From: an uncultured Lachnospiraceae bacterium
Lineage (GTDB): Bacteria; Bacillota; Clostridia; Lachnospirales; Lachnospiraceae
Assembly (NCBI GenBank): GCA_946632055.1
Contig: CAMPAR010000016.1
Coordinates: 1-34,097 of the forward strand
DNA length: 34,097 nucleotides
Direction: 5' to 3'
The position numbers were made by a program, and so were the translations under genes. The notes under the pieces were generated by a model that did no database searches, had not been told where the DNA came from, and saw nothing but the letters and a program-made list of their open reading frames with translations. The first letter of the stretch is position 1. Each line of letters starts with the position of its first letter. This document shows positions 686 through 16,561 of the stretch, in pieces.

Positions 686-3103
686 CTATTCCTCGTAATA
701 CGTAATGCTCCCATCCTCCTCGACGGTATACATCACAAAGTCCGTCATATAGTAATCGCCGAAGATGTCATCGATGCAGAAGGCGTAGAGATAGTCGCCG
801 GTCTCCATCAGCTCGTAGTACAGTTCGGTGTCCTCGGTGACGGTATACTCCCAGCCCGTGTATTCAAGATCCTCCTCGGTATCCAGGTTCCAGGCATAAT
901 AGCGCGGGAGGATCACATCTCCCGGCGCCACGGTCTTCGTTTCCCGTGCGGAAGCGCCGTAGTCCGTAATGCCGTCCCAGGCGCCCTCTATTACGACGCG
1001 CCCGTCCTCGTAATACTGCTTGAGGCGCAGGTTCGTCTCCTCGCCGTTCAGATAGACCGGACTCGAGTAAATCACATAGTCGTCCGCGTAGTCGACGATA
1101 TAAAGTGCGAGATTCTGGCCGTCCGGAAGGGAAATCCAGTAGCCGTCGAACTGGTCCGCGAAGAAGCCGTATTCCCAGTCGGCCTCCACGTCGATCGTTT
1201 CGCCGAGCTCGATCACGTCCTCGCCGTCCGGCGAGATCTGATACACATAGGCGAGCACGTCCGAGGTATAGTACCAGCCGTCGTCATCCAGAACGAAATA
1301 GTAATTTCCCTCTTCGTCAAGCTGCGGAGCCACCTCGAAGGTGATGAGGCTGCTCTCTCCGGTCGTCTCGTAGCCGTCGAGATAATCCCAGTAGCTGTCG
1401 CCCGCGCCGGGCTCTTCCCCCGTACCGTAGGAGCCTTCGGATTCCCAGCCGGGCTCCTCCTCTTCATAGTCCTCGTAGTCTCCGCCGCCTTCTTCGAAAA
1501 GCCAGCTCCAGAAGCCGTCGTCCGAGAACCAGGTGTCGTCGTCATAATTCTCTGTATCGCCGTCCGACACGCTGCCGTGCGCCTGCCGGTCCACGAAGGA
1601 CAGGTAATAAGGGCTGACGCTGATCGCGCTGAACGTCGAAAGCTCCGAGCTTCCGCCGATTTCCAGCGGATAATACAGGGAAAGGCCGCCGGCGTTTTCA
1701 TGATCCGCGCCGGAAATCTGATAGACGACCGCGTTTTTCAGGTCGCGTAACACCTCCTCCGACGAGGGCGCGTGGGACGAGGCGGAACGCACCATGCCGG
1801 CGAGGTCGACCATGTTCGTATAGCCGTCGATCCGGTTGTTGCCGCCGAAGTTTTCCGCGCTCCGGATGCCGCGCACGAGCTCCGTGAGGAGCGCGCTGTC
1901 CGAGCCCGCCTCATAGATCTCTTGAGAGAAGCGGTTGAAGGAAACAAGAAGCGGATCAATTTTCGCAAGGTCAACGACGGAAAGCGTGGCGATGTCCGCG
2001 TCGTTCATCTCGACGCAGGCTTCATAGAAGCGGTCGCAGATTTCCTTTCCGACCGCCGCGCCGTCCGCCTCCGGATGCGCCGTAAGAAACCCTCCGAGGG
2101 TCGAATAATCCCAGCCGGAGCCGGGCTCGCTTTCCTCGGAGGCCACCATGTAGCGTGCGTAATTTGCCAGGATATTCGCGGTTTCGAGCGTCCCCATCAG
2201 GCAGGCGTCGAAGCCGATGATTTCAAAGCGGTCCGTCATCAGACGCGAGATGTTTCCGAGCGCCGTGCTGATTTCGGCAAGCGTCAGCGAATCGTAGTCG
2301 TAAAGCTCGTCGAAGCAGACGCCGGTAATGCTTCCGCCGCCGTGATTCCAGAACACAAGCCCCATCTTTTCTGAGGCGTAGTTTTCAATGCCGAAGCTTA
2401 AGAAATCCGCAAGCGTTCCCGGAGCGCCCATGCAGCGCTTTCCGACATTCGCAAGCAAGGTCTTTTTCCCGTCCTCGATCAGCCAGCGCTCGTTCACGCG
2501 GGCCGTCGCCGTATTCCGGTACCAGTAGGCGGTTCCGCCGGTCTCCACGACGAAGCGCACGCGGGAGGAGCGGCTGCTCTCCAGCATTTCGGAGAGGTCC
2601 ATCGTGCCCATGCCGCCTTCTCCGTTCCCCGCGGACTCGAGATCCGTTCCGCAGAGATAAACGAAGAAGGTCCAGAGCCCCTTTTCTCCCATCGGCGTCT
2701 CCTGATCCCGCGAAGGGCGGGAAATCACGAGCTCGCCGCTCTTATTGTCGACCTTCATTTCGGCATTTTCCGCGGAGGGAGCAGTGTTTTCGGTGGAGGG
2801 AGCAGTACTTTCCGAAGAAGAGATGCTCTCCGTCTCTTCCGAAGGCTCCTCAGGCTCCGTGCCGCTTTCCGTCTCCGTTTCTCCGTCTTTTTCCGGAATG
2901 TCAGGCGCGGCAGTCACGGAAAAACCGCTCTCTCCGGCCGTCGACAGGGCCGTGCTCTCCTCATCCGATTCATCGCCGCCGAAAAGCGCCGATCCGAGGA
3001 GGGCCGCAGGGCCAAGAAGACAGCCTGAAAGAGCGGTCATCATATAGAGCACCGCAAGTAAAGCAGCTAATTTTTTCAGCAGAACTTTTCCCAGGTGTTT
3101 CAT
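686..3103 (-). CDS. Clostripain-family (peptidase C11) lipoprotein
   Basis: Predicted surface-anchored cysteine protease of 805 aa. An N-terminal signal ends in a lipobox (LSGC, Cys28), followed by a long Ser/Glu/Thr-rich linker to about residue 135. The C11 core starts near TFFVYLCGTDLES (145-156) and carries the catalytic pair seen in clostripain: His254 in FWNHGGG and Cys301 in GFDACLMG. C11 enzymes usually cleave after Arg or Lys. The C-terminal 300 residues are acidic and aromatic-rich, without a motif I can name, and may be beta-sandwich substrate or wall-binding domains. The start lies 8 nt after the guaB stop, with only a weak GAAGAA ribosome site inside the end of guaB, so it is probably translated from the guaB transcript. 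The family call is strong; the physiological substrate is unknown. Confidence 0.88.
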   Translation of the reverse strand: MKHLGKVLLKKLAALLAVLYMMTALSGCLLGPAALLGSALFGGDESDEESTALSTAGESGFSVTAAPDIPEKDGETETESGTEPEEPSEETESISSSESTAPSTENTAPSAENAEMKVDNKSGELVISRPSRDQETPMGEKGLWTFFVYLCGTDLESAGNGEGGMGTMDLSEMLESSRSSRVRFVVETGGTAYWYRNTATARVNERWLIEDGKKTLLANVGKRCMGAPGTLADFLSFGIENYASEKMGLVFWNHGGGSITGVCFDELYDYDSLTLAEISTALGNISRLMTDRFEIIGFDACLMGTLETANILANYARYMVASEESEPGSGWDYSTLGGFLTAHPEADGAAVGKEICDRFYEACVEMNDADIATLSVVDLAKIDPLLVSFNRFSQEIYEAGSDSALLTELVRGIRSAENFGGNNRIDGYTNMVDLAGMVRSASSHAPSSEEVLRDLKNAVVYQISGADHENAGGLSLYYPLEIGGSSELSTFSAISVSPYYLSFVDRQAHGSVSDGDTENYDDDTWFSDDGFWSWLFEEGGGDYEDYEEEEPGWESEGSYGTGEEPGAGDSYWDYLDGYETTGESSLITFEVAPQLDEEGNYYFVLDDDGWYYTSDVLAYVYQISPDGEDVIELGETIDVEADWEYGFFADQFDGYWISLPDGQNLALYIVDYADDYVIYSSPVYLNGEETNLRLKQYYEDGRVVIEGAWDGITDYGASARETKTVAPGDVILPRYYAWNLDTEEDLEYTGWEYTVTEDTELYYELMETGDYLYAFCIDDIFGDYYMTDFVMYTVEEDGSITYYEE

Positions 3104-3111
3104 TGAAAAAA

Positions 3112-4614
<1,503 letters not shown>

Positions 4615-4633
4615 TCAAAAGTGTATTTTATAA

Positions 4634-4662
4634 ATTATAACAAAGGGGCTCCGGGAAGTCAA
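4634..4662 (-). promoter_or_regulatory. guaB promoter
   Basis: On the minus strand, TTGACT (4657-4662) and TATAAT (4634-4639) are spaced by 17 bp. The -35 box lies within the hairpin of the upstream gene's terminator (loop and one arm). Confidence 0.8.
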
Positions 4663-4687
4663 CTTGAATCTGCTTCCCGAAAGCCCC
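4645..4687 (-). terminator. Terminator of the CxxC-repeat lipoprotein gene
   Basis: Arms GGGGCT-cc-GGGAAG (4645-4658) and CTTCCC-ga-AAGCCCC (4673-4687) form a strong hairpin 6 nt after the stop codon at 4694. On the minus strand it is followed by TTTGTTATAA, a weak U-tract that also forms the guaB -10 region. Confidence 0.75.
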
Positions 4688-4693
4688 TGTTTT

Positions 4694-5950
4694 TCATTGT
4701 TTTTGTCCGCTCTTCTCTGAAGAGGACTCACTGCCCTTTTCAGACCCGGATGCGCTTTCGGACGATCCTTCCGAACTGCCCGACGAGTCAGAGCTCTCCT
4801 CTTCTTTGGTCGGTTCGAGCTTCGGAATCACGAGCTCCTGCGCCGTCACATTCTGCATGCCGTCGGCATCCCGGAACTGTCCGCCGCAGACGCTGCAGAC
4901 ATAATGCTCGCGCACGCCTTCCGCTTCCTCTGTCGCGGGCTTCTCCGAAACCTTTGTGATGGTATGAATGCCTGTCGCCGAGATCTCAAGATCCTTGTCC
5001 GACGCCTTCGCAGTTCCCTCTTCATCGAGGAAGAGCGCGCCGCAGACGCTGCAGACATAATGCGCCTTCACGCCCGGATGCACGCAGTCTGGCTTCACTT
5101 CCTCTGCCTTTTGGAGGCTGTGTGGCACCGCCGGAATGACAAGATCCCGCTCCGGATCCTCGACAGGCTCTTTCGCCTCCGCGTCATAGAAGCGCCGGTA
5201 GCAGATCGCGCATTTCCAGTGCTCCTTCACGCCGAAGTCCGTGCAGCTTGCCGCAACCGCGTCGACATGCGAAAGCTGATGTGCTCCGTCCGTCACAAGC
5301 GCCGCAGGATCCGGAACAATCTCCGTCGCCGCCTCGTCGAAATAACAGTTCCCGCAGTTTGTGCATTCGTAGTAGGTGGTCGTGAGACCATTCTCATTAC
5401 AGTCCAGCCGTTTTGCTTCATGAACCTCAAGGTGATGTCCTGTCGGCGGGATCGTGATTTCGTCAAAGGAAGCGATAAAGCGCGTCATCTCCGCGTCCCG
5501 GAAGCAGGCGCCGCAGCCGCTGCAGCGGTAATATTCATAATGTCCGGCCTCGGTACAGGAAGCATACACGCCCGGAATGAACTCGAGCGTATGGACATGC
5601 GCCGTCTCGGCAGGTTCCGATGAGCTTTCGGTGCTTTCCTCAGGCGAAGATGTTTCCTCCTCGGAGGAATTTTCCGTACTTTCTTCCTCGGAGGATTCCT
5701 CCGTACTGCCCGTCGCGGTTTCTTCCGATTTTTCCGTTTCCTTCGCGCTTTCGGATTCCGTTTCGCCGCTCTTCGCGCTTTCGGATTCTTCACTCGTCTT
5801 CTCTTCGGGAGTCTCTGCCTCACGGCTGATGCTTTCGGAGGACGCCTCCGCGGAAGGATTGTTTTCTCTCTTCCGGCAGCCGCTGAAAGCCAGGACAGCA
5901 GCGAGCAGGATCGTGATCAGCAGCATGCCGGACCGTTTATTATTCTTCAT
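4694..5950 (-). CDS. Lipoprotein with five CxxC-containing repeats
   Basis: Predicted surface lipoprotein of 418 aa. The signal peptide ends at FSGC (Cys25). A long Ser/Glu/Thr linker (about 30-115) is probably a spacer from the membrane. Then come five repeats of about 50 residues, each of the form His...CTxxGxxxYYxCxxCGxxFxDxx followed by an IPxTG-like end; examples are YRCSGCGACFRD, YECTNCGNCYFD and YVCSVCGALFLD. The third repeat reads CAICYRRFYD and the fifth lacks the first Cys. A second Ser/Glu tail closes the protein. The paired cysteines suggest metal-binding or disulfide-stabilised modules. I recognise such repeats from surface proteins of gut Firmicutes but know no function for them. 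An AAAGG ribosome site precedes the ATG. Confidence 0.75.
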   Translation of the reverse strand: MKNNKRSGMLLITILLAAVLAFSGCRKRENNPSAEASSESISREAETPEEKTSEESESAKSGETESESAKETEKSEETATGSTEESSEEESTENSSEEETSSPEESTESSSEPAETAHVHTLEFIPGVYASCTEAGHYEYYRCSGCGACFRDAEMTRFIASFDEITIPPTGHHLEVHEAKRLDCNENGLTTTYYECTNCGNCYFDEAATEIVPDPAALVTDGAHQLSHVDAVAASCTDFGVKEHWKCAICYRRFYDAEAKEPVEDPERDLVIPAVPHSLQKAEEVKPDCVHPGVKAHYVCSVCGALFLDEEGTAKASDKDLEISATGIHTITKVSEKPATEEAEGVREHYVCSVCGGQFRDADGMQNVTAQELVIPKLEPTKEEESSDSSGSSEGSSESASGSEKGSESSSEKSGQKQ

Positions 5951-5993
5951 ATATTTGCAACCTTTTATCTGATAAAACCTTTCTCTCCGCCGT

Positions 5994-12872: not shown

Positions 12873-12896
12873 GCCTCCGTTTATCATAAAACAGGA

Positions 12897-12922
12897 GCGG
12901 CCGGGAAAAGCCTCCCGGCCGC
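12897..12922. terminator. Bidirectional terminator
   Basis: A perfect 9-bp stem GCGGCCGGG/CCCGGCCGC (12897-12905 with 12914-12922) is followed by TTTCTCTC on the plus strand and, after the minus-strand stem, by TCCTGTTTTA. It lies between convergent genes ending at 12872 and 12930 and can serve both. Confidence 0.8.
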
Positions 12923-12929
12923 TTTCTCT

Positions 12930-13502
12930 CTATCTTCCGCGCTTTACCAGGATCATCCCGAACAGGAAGCCGAAAATAAAGCCGAAGAGATGTCCCAGAT
13001 AGTCCACGGAGCTGCTGTCCGGGACCAGATTGATCGCCGCGTAAATGCCGAGTCTCAGAAGCTGGCTTTTCAGCACTGCTTTATCCAGAAGCTTCCGGTT
13101 CTTGATATAGAAGGCCGCATTGACGCCGAGAAGCCCCATGATCGCGCCGGAAGCGCCGAGCGACCAGGTATTGTCCCGCATCAGATATCGGAAGCCCGCG
13201 TCGGCAAGCCCGCCCGCGATGCCGGAGGCAAAGTACAGGGTGTAGTATTTCCACACCGGCTGCGTCAGGAGCACCAGCCCCGAAAGGCCGAAAAGGGAAA
13301 TCATATTGAAGGTGATGTGGCGGATATCCGCGTGAAGGAACATGGAGGAAAGCACCCGCCAGTATTCGTGATCCGCGTACACCGTTTGCGCGTTCATCAT
13401 CCAGTCGTATTTATCATAGGCAAAAAAGCCGAGGATAAAGATGATCACATTCGCGGCAATCAGGATATAAACCGGTATCTGCTTTTTGATGCTTAAGCCC
13501 AT
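12930..13502 (-). CDS. Rhomboid-family intramembrane serine protease
   Basis: A 190-aa polytopic membrane protease with six predicted helices. Signature residues: an FLHADIRHITFNM segment (oxyanion-site Asn66 with His57 and His62), catalytic Ser118 in SLGASGAIMG, and catalytic His171 in DYLGHLFGF. Rhomboids cut transmembrane helices of substrate proteins within the membrane. The GGAG site lies 6 nt before the ATG. It is the last gene of the operon starting at 16257, 33 nt after the unknown 388-aa protein, before a shared terminator. Its place in the operon suggests it may cut or release a product of the same pathway, but independent housekeeping use is equally possible. Confidence 0.92.
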   Translation of the reverse strand: MGLSIKKQIPVYILIAANVIIFILGFFAYDKYDWMMNAQTVYADHEYWRVLSSMFLHADIRHITFNMISLFGLSGLVLLTQPVWKYYTLYFASGIAGGLADAGFRYLMRDNTWSLGASGAIMGLLGVNAAFYIKNRKLLDKAVLKSQLLRLGIYAAINLVPDSSSVDYLGHLFGFIFGFLFGMILVKRGR

Positions 13503-13535
13503 GTATGCTCCATTCCTTTTAAAGGCTGACGCCTC

Positions 13536-14702
13536 TTAGAGTTCCGTCCAGTTCAGGCGGTTCAGCGTCTCCTGGTCCGGCGCCGCGCCGGACACGCCGT
13601 ACACATCCCCGTAGCGGTTTTCGTAGACATGATCGGCCGTCACGGAAACCTCGACCGGGCGGCCGTCCGTCGTATAATAGGTATTGACGCCCCGCACAGC
13701 TTCCGAATAGTTCTGGCTGATCCGGCTCTCCGAGGCCATCTTCTGATTCCAGCTGTCCATGATTCCGGCGGAAATCTGCTGCGAGTTTTCCTGCAGCATC
13801 CGCGTCAGCTTCTGCTGCTGGTACTGCAGATTCATCCGCGCCTGATTCGCCATCTGCTGGTACTGCAGGCTCTGCTGCAGCCTCCATCCGGCCCGCTCCG
13901 AGCGCAGCCGGATAAACTCGCTGCGAAGCGAGGGCTCCATCTGCCAGGTCGATACGACGTCGATAAAGGCCGAAGACGCTTCCTTCTCGTACTCCGCCGG
14001 CGTGATGAGGACGAAACGGTTCTCCGCGCCCCATTCGATCGCGTCGCAGGGGCTGCCCTCTCCGAACACATAGCTCCCCTTCGCCTGCTGCCGCGCACCG
14101 CCCATGCCGAACATCCCGTAACCGGTCGGCGCCGTCGTATAGTATTCAATTCCCTTGTAATCCACGCCTGCGTATACCACGAAAGGAATTCCGTCCTTCT
14201 CGCCGGTATAGCGCGACAGAATCGACCGGAACATCACGTTCTGCGGATAGGTCGGCGCGCCGCCCATGGCTTCATACTGGAAGTAGACGTCGTACTCCGC
14301 CCGGAAATCCGCCAGCTTCTTCCGGAGATTCCGGTCGAAAACGCTCGGCAGCGTCGCCCTCGCGGTCTCCGTCAGCCTCATTTCGGCCATATACTCCGCA
14401 GTCTCCTTCACATAGAGCCAGGGATCGATAAAATCCCGGACAGAGTCCCAGAGAATGCCCGGCACCTGCCTCAGCGCCTTTTTGATGACCGGGTTCTTAT
14501 AGGTCGTGAACATCTCGTCCGACATCGCGTAAATGCGGATCTTTCTCGGGTAATCCTGCACAAAGGAAAGCACGGTGAAGGGCACGCGTTCATGCTTCAT
14601 CTTCGGTGAGAAGATCCCGCTGCAGGCGTAGCCCGCCGGGACCGCCGAGGAAGCGACGACCCGGTTATCCGAAGTCCTGATAGTCATCATGCTCGAACTC
14701 AT
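13536..14702 (-). CDS. Unknown 388-aa protein in the radical SAM operon
   Basis: I do not recognise this protein. No signal peptide or clear membrane helix is seen. The N-terminal half has a start like SSAVPAGYACSGIFSP, a region of alternating hydrophobics (VPFTVLSFVQDYPRKIRIYAMSD, about 41-63) and a Gly/Met patch (PTGYGMFGMGG). It contains YAG in VVYAGVDYKG, but not the YAGP motif of the first operon gene. Around residues 270-310 it is rich in Gln and Met (QQSLQYQQMANQAR), probably a coiled coil. The end has VNTYYTTDGRPVEVS followed by NRYGDVYGVSG. An AGAGGTGA ribosome site precedes the ATG at 14702, 6 nt after the radical SAM gene stop. Tight coupling suggests a partner, scaffold or delivery protein of the modification system. 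Confidence 0.75.
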   Translation of the reverse strand: MSSSMMTIRTSDNRVVASSAVPAGYACSGIFSPKMKHERVPFTVLSFVQDYPRKIRIYAMSDEMFTTYKNPVIKKALRQVPGILWDSVRDFIDPWLYVKETAEYMAEMRLTETARATLPSVFDRNLRKKLADFRAEYDVYFQYEAMGGAPTYPQNVMFRSILSRYTGEKDGIPFVVYAGVDYKGIEYYTTAPTGYGMFGMGGARQQAKGSYVFGEGSPCDAIEWGAENRFVLITPAEYEKEASSAFIDVVSTWQMEPSLRSEFIRLRSERAGWRLQQSLQYQQMANQARMNLQYQQQKLTRMLQENSQQISAGIMDSWNQKMASESRISQNYSEAVRGVNTYYTTDGRPVEVSVTADHVYENRYGDVYGVSGAAPDQETLNRLNWTEL

Positions 14703-14708
14703 TCTGTT

Positions 14709-15737
14709 TCACCTCTTTTCTTCCGGAATCTCCCGCGCGCAGCCGATGTTTTCATACAGCTTTCCATGCGTGAACCAGTTGTAAGAGCGGCAGCCGCCCG
14801 CACAATAGGCCGAAACGCTGCAGGACGCGCATTTTCCGGTCAAAAACTTCTTCTGAAAGCCCCGGTTATAGGAAAAGGCCTTCTCGTCCTCCCAGATTTC
14901 CCGGAGGCTTTTCTCGCGCAGATTTCCTTCATTGAAGCGTTCATCGTACATCGACTCGCAGCCGCGCACATTCCCGACAGAATCGATGCCGAGCGACGTG
15001 AGTCCGGCGCGGCAGCCGGTAAAGCGGAAGCGGCCGTTCTGTACGCCGCGAAGCGAGCCTTCCGTTTCCGTATAATATCCGATGTTGTCCGCAATTCCGA
15101 GCGCGAACGGCGCTTCTCTCCGGTGCCTTTCCACGAAGTCCACCGCTTCCCGGAAGGAAAAGCGCCAGGGCACGCCTCCGTTTGCCGCGTTGCCCATCGG
15201 CGAGCAGGCCTGCAGCTGCCATGCGAAGATCGGGAGCGGCTCCAGATACCGGTACATCTCCGGGAGACGCTTCACATTCTCCGCGTTCAGCGTGCTGATC
15301 ACGGACACCGGAATCCCGGCCTCTGTCAGCACCCGGATGGCCTGATCCGCGCGCTGAAATGAGCCCTCCTGCCGGTACTTGTCATGGACGTCCTTCGGTC
15401 CGTCGATCGAGACGGCGACGGATTCCACCTGAAGCGTCTTCAGCGTGTCCACCAAAGCGTCCCCGAAAAGGAATCCATTCGTAATGATCGTGACACGGAG
15501 ACCTGCGTCCCGAAGAGCCCGGACAATCTCCTCCCAGTCCTTCCGCATGAAGACTTCGCCGCCGATCAGATTCACCCGTTTGCATCCGAGCTCCGACAGC
15601 TGCTTCACGACAGAGAGACATTCTTCGGTCGTAAGTTCATTCTCCCTCGCTCTTCCGCCGGAAGACCCGCAGTATTTGCAGGAGAAGCAGCAGGCCAGCG
15701 TGATTTCCCAGACAATGCTGTTCAGCCGATACTTCAT
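14709..15737 (-). CDS. Radical SAM/SPASM peptide- or protein-modifying enzyme
   Basis: A 342-aa cytoplasmic radical S-adenosylmethionine enzyme. The [4Fe-4S] motif CX3CX2C is LACCFSCKYC (Cys16, Cys20, Cys23), followed by the SAM-binding GGEV motif (NLIGGEVFMR). The C-terminal SPASM domain binds auxiliary clusters: Cys242 and Cys260 (GX4C type, GNVRGC), then CX2CX5CX3C (303, 306, 312, 316) and a last Cys333. SPASM enzymes include RiPP maturases and sulfatase maturases. No N-terminal RRE precursor-binding domain is present. The start is the ATG at 15737 with an AGAGGAAG site; an in-frame ATG at 15755 has none. The gene follows the VYAGP-repeat protein by 28 nt and precedes the unknown 388-aa gene by 6 nt. 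That context, rather than any motif, suggests the VYAGP protein as substrate. Confidence 0.9.
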   Translation of the reverse strand: MKYRLNSIVWEITLACCFSCKYCGSSGGRARENELTTEECLSVVKQLSELGCKRVNLIGGEVFMRKDWEEIVRALRDAGLRVTIITNGFLFGDALVDTLKTLQVESVAVSIDGPKDVHDKYRQEGSFQRADQAIRVLTEAGIPVSVISTLNAENVKRLPEMYRYLEPLPIFAWQLQACSPMGNAANGGVPWRFSFREAVDFVERHRREAPFALGIADNIGYYTETEGSLRGVQNGRFRFTGCRAGLTSLGIDSVGNVRGCESMYDERFNEGNLREKSLREIWEDEKAFSYNRGFQKKFLTGKCASCSVSAYCAGGCRSYNWFTHGKLYENIGCAREIPEEKR

Positions 15738-15765
15738 AGCGCTTCCTCTTTGCATGCGGGCTTCG

Positions 15766-16257
15766 TCAGCCCTGACGGTTCAGGAAGAAATCCGGTCCCG
15801 CATAGACCATCTTCATGGCGGCATCATCCGGTTTGTCTTCCTGATCCTTCAGCGGCGTGCCGCACTCCGTACAGAAGGGAGAATTTTCCGGGACCTTCGC
15901 CCCGCAAGCGGGACAGACGCGCCAGTTTCCTTCCTCCTCTTCCGCAAAATTCCCGGGATACGGCTTCAGATCCTCCTCTTCGACCGGTTCCTCCTCCGGT
16001 CCGTCCCACATGTCCGGACCGCCGTAGACATCTTCGATCTCCGCGTCAGACGGGTTCCCGTTCTCCGGCTTATCGGGCGATACCGGCTTCGGACCGGCAT
16101 ACACGCGGCCCATCACGCCCTTAGGCCACTCCATATTCTGCGGACCGGCATAGACGGCTCCTGTCTCCGCCGGATCCGGCCTTCCGATCTCGCGGGGTCC
16201 GGCATAGACCCCGCTTATTTCCACTTTTCTCTTTTTCCGTTTCAGAAAGTCAAACAT
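15766..16257 (-). CDS. Zinc-ribbon protein with five VY(A/G)GP motifs (candidate radical SAM substrate)
   Basis: A 163-aa protein. After a basic start (MFDFLKRKKRKVEISG), five copies of V-Y-(A/G)-G-P occur, with Tyr at 18, 36, 53, 78 and 152. The contexts are VYAGPREI, VYAGPQNM, VYAGPKPV, VYGGPDMW and VYAGPDFF, the last 12 residues from the C-terminus. The linkers are Pro/Glu/Asp-rich and probably unstructured. A zinc ribbon CPAC...CTEC (Cys115, 118, 129, 132) separates motifs 4 and 5. There is no signal peptide or membrane helix. The start is the ATG at 16257 with an AGGAGG site; an in-frame ATG at 16584 is rejected because the promoter lies downstream of it. It is the first gene of the operon, upstream of the radical SAM gene. 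Repeated short motifs beside a SPASM enzyme are typical of modified substrates; that role is inferred. Confidence 0.8.
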   Translation of the reverse strand: MFDFLKRKKRKVEISGVYAGPREIGRPDPAETGAVYAGPQNMEWPKGVMGRVYAGPKPVSPDKPENGNPSDAEIEDVYGGPDMWDGPEEEPVEEEDLKPYPGNFAEEEEGNWRVCPACGAKVPENSPFCTECGTPLKDQEDKPDDAAMKMVYAGPDFFLNRQG

Positions 16258-16344: not shown

Positions 16345-16373
16345 ATCATAAATCCCGGAAAGAGGACTGTCAA
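16345..16373 (-). promoter_or_regulatory. Promoter of the VYAGP / radical SAM operon
   Basis: On the minus strand, TTGACA (16368-16373), a 17-bp spacer and TATGAT (16345-16350), near-consensus sigma-A boxes. The transcription start would be near 16338, giving a leader of about 80 nt. No further promoter was seen between the four genes. Confidence 0.82.
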
Positions 16374-16467: not shown

Positions 16468-16496
16468 TTGTTCGTTCACGCAGCTTGCATTATAAT
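16468..16496 (+). promoter_or_regulatory. Promoter of the GH2 gene
   Basis: TTGTTC (16468-16473), a 17-bp spacer and TATAAT (16491-16496). The leader would be about 58 nt. Confidence 0.65.
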
Positions 16497-16561
16497 GTAA
16501 GTACAATGCATTTTCGACACGATTATCACAATTCACAAATATGCTGATCAGGAGGCAAAGA

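Follow-up and report, generated by a model that had tools for sequence, protein, structure and literature searches.

A motif protein and its radical-SAM enzyme

We analysed a 34,097-nucleotide (nt) stretch of DNA from an uncultured Lachnospiraceae bacterium, referred to here as the window, which encodes a zinc-ribbon protein with five VY(A/G)GP motifs and, directly after it, a SPASM radical S-adenosylmethionine (SAM) enzyme. Together with a protein of 388 amino acids (aa) and a rhomboid protease, they occupy window positions 12930-16257 on the minus strand, and all four open reading frames (ORFs) were confirmed. The initial annotation had described four closely spaced genes and five motifs in the 163-aa zinc-ribbon protein; the coordinates agree, with intergenic gaps of 28, 6 and 33 nt, and the motifs comprise four VYAGP and one VYGGP. 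Pfam matches that exceed the cut-off were obtained for the zinc ribbon (PF13240, 3.3e-8), Radical_SAM (PF04055, 1.5e-27), SPASM (PF13186, 1.1e-8) and Rhomboid (3.2e-29). For the enzyme, an ATG with AGAGGAAGCGCT before it gives 342 aa, the longest ORF beginning at 15755.

A scan of genomes with eight aligned enzymes found 429 relatives, and the best 80 loci of the 429 were kept, amounting to 827,929 bases. By title, these loci belong to Clostridia or Bacillota, with one titled just 'bacterium', and carriers of the pair are uncultured gut and rumen bacteria. We observed a motif ORF upstream of the enzyme in 77 of the 80 loci; 75 carry the strict motif, defined as [VLI]Y[AGSC][AGSPC]P, and 67 carry at least two strict motifs. 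Variant motifs lie directly upstream of the enzyme in L090 (VYFGP) and L114 (VYDGP, VYMGP), and in L071 the motif ORF is found 287 nt downstream of the enzyme. Besides the upstream partners, this L071 ORF is the only one with at least two strict motifs in the 827,929 bases. Of 397 genomes in the window's family, 14 have the enzyme (E ≤ 1e-110), and in 12 of these a motif ORF lies upstream; the eight genomes with the best substrate-profile matches (E ≤ 1.1e-11) are all among the 14, each with the enzyme adjoining. The initial annotation had staked its proposal on VYAGP proteins co-occurring with this radical-SAM clade, and at 77/80 loci and 12/14 family genomes the co-occurrence holds. These data strongly support that the motif protein and the radical-SAM enzyme form a conserved two-gene pair.

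The full-length substrate profile (A1) matched 175 of 397 genomes and was dropped as a family count, because the zinc ribbon drove most of the matching and, among 30 A1 loci examined, only the eight best (E ≤ 1.1e-11) adjoin an enzyme, the other 22 having neither enzyme nor repeat array.

A homology search with the window motif protein returned 58 proteins (P0002-P0059), 57 of them with at least two VY(A/G)GP motifs, and zinc ribbon and repeats swap order among these homologues. Combining the 75 proteins from enzyme-found loci with 59 others (the window protein and its search matches, motif-enriched by selection) gave 134 distinct proteins with 426 VYAGP motifs, against 0.05 expected from composition. 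Strict copies number one to eight per motif protein at variable spacing, and the zinc-ribbon pattern is present in 61 of the 75 proteins from enzyme-found loci. In the window's own genome, a DNA pattern of the motif matches 10 times compared to 4 for a reversed control, half of the 10 being the window motifs. At E ≤ 1, the window motif protein matches a zinc-ribbon type and other weak families.

Among the 134 proteins, the variable position of V(x)AGP holds Tyr in 426 cases and His in a single one. Val precedes the Tyr in 426 of 473 xYAGP motifs, the residue after it in VY(x)GP (n = 481) is Ala 426 times, Gly 23, Met 19 and others 13, and Gly fills the variable position of VYA(x)P, third from the Tyr inclusive, in 426 of 470. 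Near the Tyr we saw no fixed partner residue: Glu stands four residues after it in 173/426 motifs and Cys just before the Val in 69/426. The near-invariance of the Tyr (426/427) backs its earlier nomination as candidate site, and on sequence grounds it is the best candidate for the residue that is modified.

Several motif proteins have an unusual architecture. L048 carries a tandem pair of different VYAGP proteins (4543-5004 and 5089-5961) ahead of one enzyme. In L139, VYAAP stands between the kinase and FHA domains of a protein (2483-3748) whose gene immediately precedes that of the enzyme, and the L071 ORF (7316-7762) resembles by eye a kinase tail with VYAGP and LYAAP, where Pfam found nothing. 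In L066 (4804-5991), a KsgA-type rRNA adenine dimethylase ORF continues in frame into a final region with LYAAP, VYAAP and zinc-ribbon-like Cys residues, which is either a fusion or an assembly effect.

A motif protein acting as a zinc-ribbon scaffold or chaperone, its motif a docking tag for an enzyme whose target lies elsewhere, would fit the motif's presence in the kinase-FHA protein and at the KsgA-type ORF end, as well as the lack of an exporter or leader peptidase conserved by the pair. However, one to eight strict copies at variable spacing and a near-invariant Tyr suit repeated target sites better, and KYGYP repeats beside related enzymes (described below) have the same layout, so that we consider this explanation improbable.

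Neighbouring genes and local additions

The initial annotation had treated the four genes as one modification system. As one modification-and-processing unit, the rhomboid would free modified pieces and the 388-aa protein would be a partner, in keeping with the short gaps, a promoter before the genes and a terminator-like stem after them. However, besides the window, the rhomboid was found in L035 and L036 (2/80 loci) and in L005, all close relatives. The 388-aa protein adjoins the enzyme in the window genome only, among loci examined that do not include the surroundings of its closest homologues (P0181-P0183), and in L002 its homologue sits among other genes. We conclude that both accompanying genes are local additions to the pair, and the four-gene unit did not hold up and is very improbable. 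The 388-aa protein has 236 homologues; among the matches listed, seven have an organism name, all Erysipelotrichaceae. A Pfam search assigned it no family, and its predicted fold (mean predicted local distance difference test, pLDDT, 83) has no match in the PDB at E ≤ 0.001.

Clustering of neighbours across the 80 loci (ORFs of at least 70 aa) showed no exporter, leader peptidase or family resembling a RiPP recognition element (RRE) at a fixed place; the same clustering joined motif proteins by similarity in 34 loci. No recurring neighbour family corresponds to a PlpY-like truncated RRE partner in these ORFs of at least 70 aa, with no RRE profile run. ATP-binding cassette (ABC) transporter ORFs are present in 10 loci, with neither distance nor strand constant. 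In 6/80 loci, members of one KsgA-type family, the L066 in-frame ORF included, share the enzyme's strand and begin at most 740 nt upstream of it.

Of the single strong promoter proposed earlier, the site itself stands, matching 11/12 positions; that it is the only promoter is uncertain, because a weaker site (10/12) is also present further upstream (Table 1). In total, the scan gave 6 promoter-like and 8 terminator-like sites compared to shuffled means of 1.4 and 4.4.

Table 1 Features at the locus, in window coordinates.
Feature	Position	Strand	Basis
Motif protein, candidate substrate, 163 aa, zinc ribbon and five VY(A/G)GP	15766..16257	-	ORF, Pfam, motif scan, homologue family P0002-P0059
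Motif 1, VYAGP	16195..16209	-	Motif scan
Motif 2, VYAGP	16141..16155	-	Motif scan
Motif 3, VYAGP	16090..16104	-	Motif scan
Motif 4, VYGGP (strict x-Tyr-Gly)	16015..16029	-	Motif scan
Motif 5, VYAGP	15793..15807	-	Motif scan
Zinc ribbon, residues 115-136 of motif protein	15850..15915	-	PF13240
SPASM radical-SAM enzyme, putatively splicease-like, 342 aa	14709..15737	-	Pfam, NCBIfam, alignment, trees, fold
388-aa protein without known family, outside conserved unit	13536..14702	-	Pfam, neighbourhoods, fold search
Rhomboid protease, accessory, close relatives only	12930..13502	-	Pfam, neighbourhoods
Sigma-70-type promoter, TTGACA-17-TATGAT, 11/12 positions	16345..16373	-	Site scan
Weaker promoter-like site, 10/12 positions, further upstream	16489..16517	-	Site scan
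Intrinsic-terminator-like stem, 12 pairs, operon end	12896..12923	-	Site scan

Relatives of the enzyme and the ORFs beside them

The best NCBIfam scores of the window enzyme are 221 bits for TIGR04103 (nif11-class maturase 3) and 215 bits for TIGR03913 (GDL peptide maturase), the latter below its cut-off of 591.75; the next family scores 152. We take TIGR04103 to be the PlpX splicease family. Across the 85 members of alignment A3, the best E-values follow the same order (TIGR04103 8.3e-83, TIGR03913 1.3e-70, next 1.6e-47), and it is this ranking, not the match itself, that counts as evidence, because all 85 also match the other listed families. The 85 rows are the window enzyme, those of six of the seven other substrate-profile loci with an enzyme, and 78 of the 80; L011, L063 and L109 were excluded for uncertain or truncated starts or length. 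Ten cysteines (C16, C20, C23, C242, C260, C303, C306, C312, C316 and C333) are invariant in all rows, giving the CxxxCxxC and seven SPASM Cys of the SPASM radical-SAM class. We found 61 columns common (at least 95% per group) to 21 rows of VYAGP-type (VY), 6 of TIGR04103 and 4 of GDL enzymes, 14 of which are absent from five outgroup rows.

Two maximum-likelihood trees were built. Tree 1 has 39 rows including PqqE, and its share of KYG, a second Lachnospiraceae clade, is the Agathobacter row only; tree 2 has 41 rows, with UNK_Phocaei, PQQE, VY_L035 and GDL_Azoory dropped and six added. Both are without an AhbD row (TIGR04545 in the window's own genome matched this enzyme only). The VY, SPL (TIGR04103), GDL and KYG enzymes group apart from the MftC, NirJ and TIGR04053 rows, with support of 99/99 in tree 2 and 95/99 in tree 1, where PqqE is present. 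A mycofactocin-like oxidative decarboxylation of a Val-Tyr end could be imagined, since Val-Tyr and a SPASM enzyme are found in both systems (mycofactocin chemistry in the available text of PMC8326336) and TIGR03962 (mycofactocin, MftC) matches at 132 bits. The Val-Tyr pairs are internal here, however, and the MftC rows fall outside the enzyme group in both trees, which makes this reaction scarcely credible.

An AlphaFold model of the enzyme has a SPASM fold (mean pLDDT 85), its nearest solved folds being PqqE, SuiB and SkfB, which form other bonds. Searching the window's phylum for TIGR04103 at E ≤ 1e-90 gave 0/299 genomes, but 14 control genomes were equally silent, so the search says nothing on absence. 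A homology search with the Nostoc enzyme introduced below gave 7631 matches, and PlpX is not named among the 120 matches listed, all near copies.

Next, we considered the ORFs beside related enzymes. At the sole TIGR04103 locus inspected, a Nostoc plasmid encodes an enzyme of 853 bits and a Nif11 precursor ending ALYGLPPELF; a 71-aa ORF following the enzyme could occupy the PlpY position. Close to their start, the GDL peptides from Azospirillum and Aureibacter have LYGG, PYGV, PYGP, LYAA, MYAA, PYGA or MYMA, and two GDL-type radical-SAM enzymes (L117 3875-5431, L118 3977-5401) have, by eye, a C-terminal zinc ribbon. Directly upstream of related Lachnospiraceae SPASM enzymes, the proteins of L143 (265-1428), L144 (2620-3159) and L145 (2657-3580) contain at least four KYGYP-type repeats; Pfam gave these three no family over cut-off, so that none accounts for their N-terminal part. 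Among 13 non-VY loci of the enzyme group, 11 have an x-Tyr-Gly/Ala motif ORF. An x-Tyr-Gly/Ala site is common to the candidate substrates of all three adjacent enzyme groups, as LYGLPP, LYGG/LYAA and repeated KYGYP.

Other loci with related enzymes showed further peptides. In L142, three leader-like peptides with AYA cores (430-600, 852-1037 and 2737-2913) surround the radical-SAM enzyme and a nearby ORF resembles a C39 peptidase by eye, so that the locus looks like an exported RiPP cluster. L146 has a single PYAAP motif beside the enzyme, and on an Agathobacter rectalis plasmid (L115 3707-3913) an unannotated 68-aa ORF ending PVMYGTGVRM lies just upstream of it; both PYAAP and MYG could be chance.

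Proposed reaction and comparison with known systems

We propose, with a probability of roughly 0.6, that the pair is a leaderless splicease-like system in which tyramine is excised at each VY(A/G)GP, leaving a peptidyl alpha-ketoamide in a rejoined backbone. The enzyme would act on internal VYAGP sites of the protein encoded just upstream, the motif Tyr would be removed as a tyramine unit and the backbone would then be rejoined. Each site would yield Val-CO-CO-NH-Ala/Gly, with Val before each ketone and a loss of C8H9NO (~135.07 Da), as PlpX-type spliceases take from x-Tyr-Gly. Up to five events, or about -675 Da, would be expected per window protein. We infer this chemistry because the enzyme is related to PlpX-type spliceases and ORFs next to related enzymes carry x-Tyr-Gly/Ala. 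In the available text of the sources cited here, PlpX (subclass IPR026482) removes tyramine from Xaa-Tyr-Gly (PMC11002830), MYG and LYG are natural splice sites and the leader is dispensable (PMC10533398), spliceotide products are termed protease inhibitors (PMC11117315) and rhomboids are covalently inhibited by peptidyl ketoamides (PMC5746060).

Several observations weigh against this proposal. L096 and L099 (2/80 loci), and L135 and L140 (2/14 family genomes), have the enzyme with no motif ORF beside it. Eight of the 75 strict loci carry one copy only, and L136 (cut by a contig end), L139 and L141, counted among the 12 family genomes, depend on a single VYAAP or TYAGP; single copies may be chance, because x-Tyr-(Gly/Ala) spans three residues. 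L119 and L148 of the 13 non-VY loci are without a convincing motif ORF, and so is L126, whose placement is uncertain and which was uncounted. The enzyme's 221 bits compare to a TIGR04103 cut-off of 725, support for the branch that unites VY with SPL+GDL is weak (81/63, tree 2) and outgroup branches are long, and TIGR04103 is only presumably IPR026482, the PlpX entry. Ala, not Gly, follows the Tyr in 426/481 VY(x)GP motifs, and no leader was recognised on the motif protein (no Nif11 or NHLP model at E ≤ 1). Most tags tried in FtsZ stayed unspliced, LYGLPI included, and two GYGLPI constructs were spliced (available text of PMC10533398), so the motif alone may not suffice.

The low family score also leaves room for an enzyme that alters the motif Tyr otherwise, by cross-linking to a neighbour, beta-carbon chemistry or oxidation, with the tyramine kept. 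The pairing and Tyr conservation fit any Tyr reaction, and the nearest folds (PqqE, SuiB and SkfB) make different bonds. Yet 426/470 VYA(x)P motifs have Gly as the third residue and cannot form a Tyr-x-x cyclophane to a beta carbon there; a constant partner residue around the Tyr is lacking, and ORFs beside the nearest relatives bear x-Tyr-Gly/Ala. We therefore regard other Tyr chemistry as rather unlikely. The initial annotation had left the choice between Tyr and Pro modification unspecified; judged by its nearest enzyme families, and by the x-Tyr-Gly/Ala in their substrates, splicease-type excision of tyramine is favoured instead.

If tyramine is excised, the ketoamides could plausibly be reversible traps for serine or cysteine proteases, since spliceotide products are called inhibitors and peptidyl ketoamides inhibit rhomboids. 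Because Pfam gave no family in the KYGYP proteins, this inhibitor idea comes from the chemistry alone. More speculatively, the zinc ribbon or a YPxN box may replace leader and RRE in docking the enzyme. The zinc ribbon belongs to the substrate here and, by eye, to the enzyme of GDL systems, which hints at docking as a role common to both. Equally speculative, the modified protein may remain intracellular, given that the pair has neither a conserved exporter nor a conserved leader peptidase next to it. A broader picture, unlikely as it stands, is that gut Clostridia make polyvalent alpha-ketoamide protease traps, themselves proteins, by leaderless multi-site splicing of entire zinc-ribbon proteins. 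The residue before Tyr would then be P1 and set the target, elastase-like for Val and trypsin-like for Lys (KYGYP), and the rhomboid of the same operon may be a regulated target.

If the excision is true, internal tyramine removal would extend beyond cyanobacterial peptides of the leader type to entire repeat proteins of Clostridia in the gut and rumen, which have as many as eight strict sites each and in which no leader was recognised. Each such protein would hold a string of reactive, likely protease-blocking groups, offering a testable idea about ways in which bacteria of the gut could withstand or regulate proteases. The enzymes would be candidates for the more processive spliceases wanted for protein labelling (available text of PMC10533398), and x-Tyr-(Gly/Ala)-x-Pro beside this enzyme clade would be a sequence rule for finding more systems. 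By title and start of abstract, we found no paper describing a VYAGP/radical-SAM system, though Scott et al. 2022 (Chem) may already cover it.

Among known systems, triceptides (three-residue cyclophanes), which need an aromatic-x-x core whose third residue has a beta carbon, were rejected on the Gly found there. Sactipeptides and ranthipeptides require a Cys donor in the core and were likewise set aside, as no Cys is fixed at the motif (69/426 just before VYAGP). Mycofactocin (MftA/MftC) resembles the pair in joining a SPASM enzyme to a Val-Tyr substrate; its precursor ends in a C-terminal Val-Tyr and has an RRE partner, whereas the motifs here are internal and the enzymes form a separate clade, with 132 bits against a TIGR03962 cut-off of 265.

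The GDL-motif (DUF1843) peptides have the second nearest enzyme family, a Tyr followed by Gly, Ala or Met and a zinc ribbon in the system. They differ in being short, and in Azospirillum and Aureibacter it is the enzyme that, by eye, carries the zinc ribbon; Pfam gave no DUF1843 match in the window motif protein. The KYGYP-repeat proteins are likewise repeat-bearing candidate substrates encoded immediately before a related enzyme, with the same Tyr-Gly/Ala-x-Pro spacing, but have Lys before Tyr, no zinc ribbon found and another N-terminal part.

The spliceotides and their PlpXY splicease, reportedly described by Morinaka in 2018, have the nearest curated enzyme family (TIGR04103). Further likenesses are the hydrophobic-Tyr-Gly/Ala site, the Pro three residues after Tyr in Nostoc LYGLPP and the GYGLPI tags as in VYAGP, and a PlpXY that needs no leader. 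The differences lie in the enzyme score (221 bits against 725, the Nostoc control reaching 853), in Ala mostly following Tyr (Gly in 23/481 and in one of the five window motifs), in the absence of a Nif11/NHLP leader and of a recognised PlpY, and in the strict motifs, which number one to eight and mostly belong to a zinc-ribbon protein. Because score, Gly after Tyr and leader all fail, the VYAGP system is not a spliceotide family member by the features tested; a splicease-like way of working is nonetheless what we propose for it.

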